Shown piece after piece: positions 12,580 to 27,237 of a DNA stretch of 35,285 nucleotides. Position 1 is the stretch's first letter; each line of letters starts with the position of its first letter. Where the stretch lies: the NCBI GenBank assembly GCA_028287065.1, contig JAQBQJ010000565.1, positions 1 through 35,285 of the forward strand. The letters run 5' to 3'. A program made the translations under genes and the position numbers. Source of the stretch: Labilithrix sp. (GTDB lineage Bacteria > Myxococcota_A > Polyangia > Polyangiales > Polyangiaceae). Under the pieces are notes generated by a model. The model made no database searches. It was not told the DNA's origin and worked only from the letters and a program-made list of their open reading frames with translations.

Positions 12580-13941
12580 ATGCGGAGCCTCCACAGCCTG
12601 GTCGTCCTCGGTGCCGTCGTGTCGGCCGTCGCGCTCGCGGCCGCATGTGGCGGGTCGGGCGGCGCCGCTCCGGGGGCCGGCGACGGTGGCGCGACGGTCA
12701 CGCCGGGCACGCCGGACGGCGTCGCGGGCAACCTCCCGTGCGACGTCGACGCGGTGCTCGCCGCGAACTGCCGCAAGTGTCACGACGCGTCGCCGAAGTT
12801 CGGCGCGCTGATGCCGCTCGTCACCGCGGCCGATCTCCATGCGCCGGCGGTGAGCAATCCGGGGCGCCAGGTCTACGAGCTCGTGCCCGAGCGCATCGCG
12901 GACGACGCCAATCCGATGCCCCAGCGGCCGAACCCGCGCCTCTCCGCGGGCGATCGCGCCACGCTCTCGTCGTGGGCTGCCGCGGGCGCGCCCGCCGGCT
13001 CCGCGCAGTGCAACACCGCGCCGCCGAAGCCCGACGTGATGACGAGCTGCAAGCCCGACCTCCCGATCGGCCCGGCGTCCGACTACGTGATGCCGCCGAG
13101 CACGGGCGACGAGTACGTCTGCTACGGCGTCGAGCTCACGAAGGCGACGCCGACGCAGGTCGTCGGCTTCGCGCCGCGCATCGACAACACGAACATCGTG
13201 CACCACGTCGTGCTCTACGAGGCGGACGCGGCGTACTCGCCGACGCCCACGCCCTGCAGCGCATCGGGCTCGCTGCAGTGGCACATGGTCACGGCCTGGG
13301 CGCCGGGAGGGAAGGGCTTCGAGCTCCCGCCCGAGGCCGGCTTCCCGCTGAAGACGACCGGCGCGACGCACTACGTCGTGCAGGTCCACTACTCGAACCC
13401 GCAGGCGCTCGCGAACCAGAAGGACAAGAGCGGCTTCGACCTGTGTACGTCCGCGCCGCGGAAGTACGAGGCCGACGTGATCGCGTTCGGCACGCAGAAG
13501 ATCAAGATCCCCGCCGGCGCCTCGGTCACCGCGAACTGCAAGGTGACGGTCGTCTCGCAGTTCGCCGGGCTCCATCTCATCGCGGCGATGCCTCACATGC
13601 ACAAGCTCGGTACCGACATGACGACCGAGCTCCTCGCGGGCGGTCCGTCGGGGCCCGCCACCGATCTCGGAACGGTGAAGGGCTGGAACTTCAACACGCA
13701 GGCGTGGTTCGAGATCAAAGGCGACGGCACGGGCGGCGGCGCGGTCTCGAAGACCGACGACGTCATCCAGACCAAGTGCTCGTGGAAGAACACGACGGGC
13801 GCCGAGGTGAGCTTCGGCGAAAATACCGCCGACGAGATGTGTTACTCGTTCACGACGTACTACCCGCGCATCGTCCCGCCGCAGGGACTGCCCTGGAGCT
13901 GGGCGTATCCGGCGGCGGCATCGAGCTGCACGTACGAGTGA
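12580..13941 (+). CDS. Copper type II (PHM/DBM-like) monooxygenase-type lipoprotein with N-terminal c-type heme motif
   Basis: Signal MRSLHSLVVLGAVVSAVALAAACGG; CRKCH; NIVHHVVLYE, VQVHYSNP, MPHMHKLGTDM, TADEMCYSFTTYYP. Confidence 0.85.
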   Translation: MRSLHSLVVLGAVVSAVALAAACGGSGGAAPGAGDGGATVTPGTPDGVAGNLPCDVDAVLAANCRKCHDASPKFGALMPLVTAADLHAPAVSNPGRQVYELVPERIADDANPMPQRPNPRLSAGDRATLSSWAAAGAPAGSAQCNTAPPKPDVMTSCKPDLPIGPASDYVMPPSTGDEYVCYGVELTKATPTQVVGFAPRIDNTNIVHHVVLYEADAAYSPTPTPCSASGSLQWHMVTAWAPGGKGFELPPEAGFPLKTTGATHYVVQVHYSNPQALANQKDKSGFDLCTSAPRKYEADVIAFGTQKIKIPAGASVTANCKVTVVSQFAGLHLIAAMPHMHKLGTDMTTELLAGGPSGPATDLGTVKGWNFNTQAWFEIKGDGTGGGAVSKTDDVIQTKCSWKNTTGAEVSFGENTADEMCYSFTTYYPRIVPPQGLPWSWAYPAAASSCTYE

Positions 13942-26075: not shown

Positions 26076-26099
26076 GGCACCCCGTCTAACACAGGAGTG

Positions 26100-26118
26100 G
26101 TGTCCGAATTCCGGACAC
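26100..26118. promoter_or_regulatory. Candidate operator: inverted repeat GTGTCCG-AATTC-CGGACAC
   Basis: 7-bp perfect arms in the intergenic region upstream of both the - strand lipoprotein and the + strand small ORF. Confidence 0.5.
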
Positions 26119-26219
26119 TCGCGAACCGCATAGTGTCAACAGATCGTTACATGCCGTGCGCGTAAGGCGCGGAAATGCGCGCGATCCGCGTTGGCAGAGA
26201 GGTTGCTCAGGGCCGCCGC

Positions 26220-26321
26220 ATGAGGAAGTACACGGGGAGCGGGGCGACTGCGGCGACTGCGGCGAGCGCGGCGACACAGGGCGGTGGGATGTTCGCGACG
26301 CAGGGCGGCGGGATGTTCTGA
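26220..26321 (+). CDS. Small ORF (33 aa) with duplicated ATQGGGMF C-terminal unit
   Basis: ATG with AGGG 7 nt upstream; MRKYTGSGATAATAASAATQGGGMFATQGGGMF*. The two 24-nt units differ only at two synonymous positions. Confidence 0.6.
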   Translation: MRKYTGSGATAATAASAATQGGGMFATQGGGMF

Positions 26322-26345: not shown

Positions 26346-26696
26346 CTAGCCCGTGACGTTTACGGGCCCGTGATCGTCGCAGTGCCCGCCATGCGCGTGG
26401 TGAAGGTGCCCGTCGACCACGTAGTCGGTGTGGTCGCCGTGCGCGATCGCCTCGTGGCCGCATGAGGCGCCGTGGACATGGTCCTTCGCGTGGCTGCACG
26501 AGCCGTGCGACGGCGTGCAGTCGGCCGGGTTCTTACCGCCGACGGCGATGACGTGCTCGTCGACGTGGTCGCCGTGCGCGTGATGCAGGTGGCCGTCGTG
26601 GAGGAAGTCCTGGTGGCCTTCGTGCTCGACCTGCTTGTGGCCGCAGTTCGGGCCGTGCTGGTGGTCGTGGTCATCGTGGATCTCGTGCGTGCTCAT
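26346..26696 (-). CDS. Histidine-rich putative metal-binding protein
   Basis: MSTHEIHDDHDHQHGPNCGHKQVEHEGHQDFLHDGHLHHAHGDHVDEH...; two internal repeats of GHxDxxxDGHLHHAHGxHxDxH. Confidence 0.88.
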   Translation of the reverse strand: MSTHEIHDDHDHQHGPNCGHKQVEHEGHQDFLHDGHLHHAHGDHVDEHVIAVGGKNPADCTPSHGSCSHAKDHVHGASCGHEAIAHGDHTDYVVDGHLHHAHGGHCDDHGPVNVTG

Positions 26697-26715: not shown

Positions 26716-27216
26716 TCAGTCGTCGTGTTTGTGGTCGTGCGCGTGCCCCTCGGCTGCGTGCTCGATCGCGCTCTGGATGAGGTCGCTGACGTGCGCGTCA
26801 GCAAGCGAATAGAAGATGTGCTTCCCGGCGCGTCGCCGAGCGACGATGCGCTCGGACCGCAAGAGGCGGAGCTGCTGCGAGACCGTCGAGAGCCCGACAC
26901 CTGCGGCGTCCGCGAGCTCCGTCACGCACCACTCGCCGTCGCAGAGGCGATAGAGCAGCTTGAGCCTCGAGAGGTCGCCGGCCGCCCGGAAGATCGCCGC
27001 AGCTCGATCGAGCTGATCGTCGCTGACGGTCGTCTGGCGTGCCCGCCGCGCATGCTCCTCCGGCCCGCACTGGCCTTCGGCGCGTCCCTCGGCGACCGGC
27101 TTGGACGGAGCGGTCGCGCTCGCGCTCGCGGCGGCCGCGCTGGCCACCTTGGCGACGTCGGCCGCAGAGGCCTTCAGCGAGCCGTTGGTCTTCGAGGAGG
27201 AGGGAGGGCGGGACAT
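26716..27216 (-). CDS. ArsR/SmtB-family transcriptional regulator, Zn-type alpha5 site
   Basis: wHTH core (SRLKLLYRLCDGEWCVTELADAAGVGLSTVSQQLRLLRSERIVARRRAGKHIFYSL) then DAHVSDLIQSAIEHAAEGH, giving a D-x-H-x10-H-x2-E ligand pattern. Confidence 0.93.
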   Translation of the reverse strand: MSRPPSSSKTNGSLKASAADVAKVASAAAASASATAPSKPVAEGRAEGQCGPEEHARRARQTTVSDDQLDRAAAIFRAAGDLSRLKLLYRLCDGEWCVTELADAAGVGLSTVSQQLRLLRSERIVARRRAGKHIFYSLADAHVSDLIQSAIEHAAEGHAHDHKHDD

Positions 27217-27237
27217 CACTTCACCGATTGATGAATT

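Follow-up and report, generated by a model that had tools for sequence, protein, structure and literature searches.

A 33-codon open reading frame (ORF) in the 35,285-nt stretch of Labilithrix DNA analysed here (the window) appears to be a stand-alone minigene switched by sigma-54, in which an octapeptide would be the functional element, serving as a short ligand or signal; we give this reading a probability of about 0.55. The existence of the gene and its promoter is strongly supported by a comparison with related genomes. The features of the locus are listed in Table 1.

Table 1. Features of the peptide locus in the window.
Feature	Position	Strand	Remarks
Divergent lipoprotein gene, 295 aa	25188..26075	-	no Pfam/NCBIfam family; flanks 11/11 loci
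UAS1, palindrome TGTCCG-N5-CGGACA (6-5-6)	26101..26117		centre about -109; predicted activator site
UAS2, GTGTCAACAGATCGTTACAT	26133..26152		degenerate copy of GTGTCAACACATCGTGACAC; centre about -76
Sigma-54 -24/-12 element TGGCAGAGAGGTTGC	26192..26206	+	13/13 on a simple consensus score
Predicted transcription start (+1)	26218	+	placed 12 nt past the C of the -12 GC
33-codon peptide ORF	26220..26321	+	translation MRKYTGSGATAATAASAATQGGGMFATQGGGMF*; homologues in 10 other genomes
Variable low-complexity spacer ATAATAASA	26243..26270 (9-bp microsatellite 26243-26275)	+	9-bp tandem repeat, separate from the units
Unit 1, ATQGGGMF	26271..26294	+	24-nt unit
Unit 2, ATQGGGMF	26295..26318	+	24-nt unit, stop codon directly after
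Convergent gene, His-rich protein, 116 aa	26346..26696	-	no known family; neighbour within the genus only

The repeated octapeptide and its relatives

A sequence-only reading of the window had reported the ORF and, at its end, a 24-nt duplication with two silent differences, and both were borne out: the units differ only by ACA/ACG and GGT/GGC, and their tandem is the top array of the window (TRF score 82). The same reading took the silent differences as a sign of selection on the peptide. On the window's own evidence this was only suggestive, as synonymous changes make up 23.6% of the single changes available to the unit and two silent differences out of two are expected by chance with P = 0.056 (0.085 if only transitions are counted). 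The case therefore had to rest on relatives.

Relatives were first sought in 38 related genomes, at both the DNA and the protein level, and five further genomes of the genus carried matching peptides beside the same genes. With the later searches, 10 genomes of the family besides the window's own (Labilithrix relatives, Polyangiales) proved to have the same locus, giving 11 loci with the window; all of these genomes are drafts or MAGs from one bacterial family, in which absences are weakly supported. The peptides were MKNYEGRGVRSTTATQGGGMF in G007, which has no ATAATAASA spacer, MVSFVSATQGGGMFAGSTQGGGSF in G009 and MFLIQSATQGGGTFATQGGGTFRVRA in G004, while G006 encoded six units and G003 about seven, some of them decayed. 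Two other genera of the family had 10-residue ORFs, MFATQGGGTF and MTATQGGGTF; the ORF of G020 read MTYATQGAGTL, and that of G099 was the 9-residue MATQGGGSF, which is Met, one unit and a stop codon. A genome new to the set, reached by a scan with the promoter only (locus L078), encoded MSSAHSATQGGGTFATQGGGTFLAGATPS. The number of units thus ranged from one to about seven per locus, with a single unit in 5 of the 11. Several multi-unit versions (G003, G004, G006 and MYX10) carried C-terminal tails or decayed units, indicating that a free C-terminal Phe is not essential unless the peptide is cleaved.

The pattern TQGGG(M/T)F occurred at this locus in six of 12 genomes of the genus and nowhere else in the genus, and the reversed control pattern had zero matches. 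A relaxed form of the unit, searched in 318 genomes of the class, matched these loci, one separate copy in G005 and one EF-G gene; a broader search requiring a stop codon added nothing new among 377 genomes of the phylum. The separate copy, MSHIEATQGAGTFATQGAGTF (L027:1366-1431, minus strand; G005:C7:202862-202921), has a Shine-Dalgarno (SD) sequence and no promoter block, and lies a few dozen bp 3' of a gene for a 446-aa lipoprotein without a Pfam family. The match in L055 was rejected as a peptide gene, since it falls in the EF-G-like gene (L055:1405-3024, minus strand), whose domain V reads TATQGAGTF and contains the octapeptide of the G005 unit. A second match in the window's own genome (L002) was discarded as low-complexity; a long near-perfect inverted repeat containing CGTAAACGTGAACGTGCCC was seen at L002:2510-2610. 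Phage origin was also dropped, with no megablast match in phage records. Pfam and NCBIfam profiles, run on four of the peptides at E <= 10, gave nothing except non-significant flagellar matches.

Among 27 units, the mean pairwise differences at codon positions 1, 2 and 3 were 0.054, 0.118 and 0.436, with minimum changes of 4, 4 and 19 in the respective columns. This concentration of differences at the third position strongly supports selection acting on the peptide, with the consensus ATQG[GA]G[TMS]F. Thr2, Gly4 and Gly6 were invariant, Gln3 was replaced by Arg in three units, position 5 was Gly or Ala, position 7 was Thr, Met, Ser or once Ala, and position 8 was Phe, rarely Leu; three to seven codons were used per residue position. 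The residues N-terminal to the units were unrelated between lineages, apart from M[RK][KN]YxGxG shared by the window and G007, which identifies the unit as the conserved part. The earlier view of a genuine small peptide, selected as a peptide, was in this way upheld: homologous ORFs, whose absence or loss of frame had been named as grounds against it, were found at the same locus with the frame kept, they varied at third positions, and their number of units changed between genomes. What the window's two silent differences could only hint at is thus carried by third-position variation among the relatives.

The promoter block and the surrounding genes

The 19-bp inverted repeat noticed earlier upstream of the ORF is present (GTGTCCGAATTCCGGACAC, 26100-26118) and turned out to be half of a 41-bp block, TGTCCG-N5-CGGACA-N16-TGTCAAC(A/G), after which come a sigma-54 element, TGGC-N7-TTGC, and directly the ORF. 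The order 5' of the ORFs is the palindrome TGTCCG-N5-CGGACA, 16 bp, TGTCAACA and the sigma-54 element. Both arms of UAS1 were identical in 11 of 11 loci, as was the TGTCAAC of UAS2; the second arm of UAS2 was intact in most relatives and worn in the window, G007 and G148. On a 13-point scheme the sigma-54 element had the full score in eight loci and a score of 12 in the other three, and that of the window was the only position with a score of 13 among 70,542. In ten loci its distance from the start of the palindrome is 89-92 bp; the exception, at 102 bp, is displaced by roughly one turn of the helix. The palindrome is centred at -107 to -110 (once at -120). RpoN (PF04552) was found in all eight genomes tested.

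In myxobacterial sigma-54 promoters, enhancer sites lie 80-150 bp upstream of a -12/-24 element with the consensus TGGCACG-N4-TTGC(T/A) (PMC7910581), and both the element and the spacing of our loci fit this description. The locus resembles NtrC- and Nla28-type promoters (PMC4987338, PMC7910581) in its -24/-12 TGGC-N7-TTGC and in a pair of enhancer sites located about 80-120 bp upstream, and NtrC sites, laid out as TGCACC-(A/T)4T-GGTGCA (PMC4987338), in the 6-5-6 form of the palindrome. It differs from them in the half-site, which is TGTCCG instead of TGCACC (NtrC) or CT(C/G)CG(C/G)AG (Nla28), and in having essentially one target per genome: in eight genomes the palindrome occurred about once, at this locus. 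The sequence features argue strongly for a sigma-54-dependent promoter, and the rarity of the palindrome suggests an activator with a single target, or one with further sites that the pattern misses because they are too degenerate.

Searching with the block only, we matched exactly the six peptide-carrying genomes in the genus, and eight genomes of the class out of 318, all of them peptide-carrying. When 85,462 species genomes were scanned, there were again eight matches, each with the sigma-54 element and the peptide; they fell in Labilithrix or unclassified Myxococcales MAGs, which several sequencing projects had contributed. With two mismatches allowed, 308 genomes yielded two added loci (G099 and G020), both at one mismatch and both with the sigma-54 element and a peptide. 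Every one of the 11 blocks found with no more than a single mismatch is accompanied by a peptide. The three matches at two mismatches (L095-L097) had no peptide, came from another family and were set aside as chance. Since the block was defined on the first six loci, those six are not independent evidence, which consists of L078, L098 and L099 only; these three were reached by the block and missed by the peptide search, and all three had a peptide.

In eight loci the ATG lies at +16 to +37 of the predicted start and is served by a GGGAGG- or AAGGAG-like SD sequence, and in the window (about +3), G007 and G020 it lies at +2 to +4, making the transcript nearly leaderless. The AGGG that the sequence-only reading had pointed out does sit 7 nt before the ATG of the window; it is, however, unlikely to serve as an SD sequence, because its place between the -12 box and the predicted start puts it most likely within the promoter, so that it is probably not part of the mRNA.

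The divergent lipoprotein was 51-84% identical among loci by tblastn, with partial genes at two contig edges. On the convergent side, loci of the genus typically have the gene for the His-rich protein and then that for an ArsR-type regulator, and in other genera a different gene takes this place; an Rsm22-like methyltransferase is a shared neighbour further off. None of the shared neighbours is a maturase, in line with the earlier remark that no modifying enzyme is adjacent, and no co-directional downstream gene was identified at the loci. The module is absent from G011, where the lipoprotein gene lies next to the His-rich gene, and in G005 these two genes are likewise together without it (drafts or MAGs). 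The flanking genes thus stay where the module is missing, which indicates that promoter and peptide come and go together.

Other features of the region were seen in passing. The palindrome lies about 25 bp 5' of the start of the divergent lipoprotein gene, over the place of its expected -35 (window 26076-26118), so the activator might also affect this gene. The ArsR-type regulator beside the His-rich gene (window 26716-27219, minus strand) has a His-rich tail; conservation of the DNA of this pair extends to several genera of the order, and the pair is likely to be involved in metal handling. A GACGTTTACGGGCCCG palindrome is also found at window 26355-26378, and a copper type II ascorbate-dependent monooxygenase (PHM-like; window 12580-13941, plus strand) is encoded 12 kb from the peptide.

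Alternative explanations

The peptide could instead be a multivalent intracellular small protein, whose repeats bind a partner as a sequestering or scaffolding linear motif and are not released as octapeptides. The units abut or are loosely spaced without a conserved cleavage site, and tails and decayed units are tolerated, as such a protein would allow; the single unit in 5 of 11 loci, however, shows that multivalency is not essential, and we regard this explanation as rather unlikely. A modified-peptide (RiPP) precursor, either a leader with several cores, as the sequence-only reading had proposed, or a leaderless form like the microcin C precursors, is improbable in our view. Like multi-core precursors, the loci carry tandem, identical or near-identical short units in variable number, and a 7-aa precursor can suffice, as in MccA (PMC6495379), with which the ORFs share a length down to 7-10 codons and, in most loci, a strong SD sequence. 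Unlike multi-core precursors, the smallest forms have no leader: the N-termini are unrelated, and ORFs of 9-10 aa leave no room for one. Nor is a modifying enzyme found among the conserved neighbours (the lipoprotein and the Rsm22-like methyltransferase, and within the genus the His-rich protein and ArsR). MccA, moreover, ends in Asn and lies beside mccB, whereas these peptides end in Phe, Leu or a tail, have no MccB neighbour, and occur as tandem copies of conserved sequence, where in MccA only the length is conserved. The lack of a shared maturase and of a co-directional downstream gene disfavours both a leader-core precursor and an attenuator. As to the toxin peptide that had also been offered, we found no evidence for it.

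It is very unlikely that the peptide mimics domain V of EF-G and so targets the ribosome or an EF-G binder. The unit ATQG(G/A)G(T/S/M)F does recall the TQGRG(S/T)(F/Y) of domain V, seen as KTQGRGSF and NTQGRGTY in PDB alignments, and among 318 genomes the unit pattern matched nothing outside the peptides except the EF-G-like gene; six matches out of seven to one motif can be chance, though, the conserved Arg of EF-G is missing, and Met is frequent at position 7. We think it highly improbable that the ORF is incidental to a functional RNA (an sRNA or a decoy for an RNA-binding protein). Such an RNA would agree with a transcript unit that is apparently short, sigma-54-driven and monocistronic, but differences gather at wobble positions, with three to seven codons per residue position, and a search of Rfam gave no match. 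The length of the ORF would also fit a regulatory leader peptide (an attenuator or arrest peptide) acting on a gene further downstream. This is the least probable of these explanations, given that wherever the next called gene was identified (in the window, in L083 and L099, and in those loci of the genus that have the His-rich gene) it is convergent, and that it is not the same from genus to genus.

Proposed mechanism and significance

In the sigma-54-switched minigene that we favour, a putative dedicated enhancer-binding activator would bind the 17-bp palindrome and probably also the TGTCAAC site that follows 33 bp further along, switching on the -24/-12 promoter with sigma-54 RNA polymerase. 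The short transcript would be translated into one to about seven copies of ATQG[GA]G[TMS]F. The smallest form, with Met, one octapeptide and a stop codon, points to the octapeptide as the working part; extra copies would raise its dose or valency, the N-terminal residues would be filler, and the switch-type promoter with its own activator site suggests that the peptide is made on demand. More tentatively, the octapeptide may act like PatS, as a ligand or signal that is recognised by a protein receptor. In PatS, HetN and PatX of heterocyst cyanobacteria, which have an RG(S/T)GR motif, RGSGR peptides are ligands of regulators (PMC7761841). Shared with them are a very short conserved motif, C-terminal or internal, in ORFs that are otherwise unrelated or short, a regulated promoter with production, here predicted, during a response, and, as MATQGGGSF illustrates, the sufficiency of the motif as a minimal ORF. 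The motif here is nevertheless another one, an octamer with up to about seven repeats behind a sigma-54 promoter and without sequence relation to those peptides, and its receptor is putative.

Literature searches on the motif and on sigma-54 minigenes turned up no description, and the gene is previously undescribed in myxobacteria. That it represents a new class of bacterial peptide signal, a minigene of Met, octapeptide and stop codon that is amplified in tandem and governed by a dedicated sigma-54 activator, is a possibility that we consider less likely than not. A gene of nine codons is far below the usual limits of gene calling, and a conserved and regulated example means that genes with a function escape notice. 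Because every residue of the peptide is defined, the block of promoter sequence can be used as a search key and relatives differ in copy number, the function is open to testing. If the activator serves this gene alone, the locus would provide a clean peptide-response circuit in myxobacteria.
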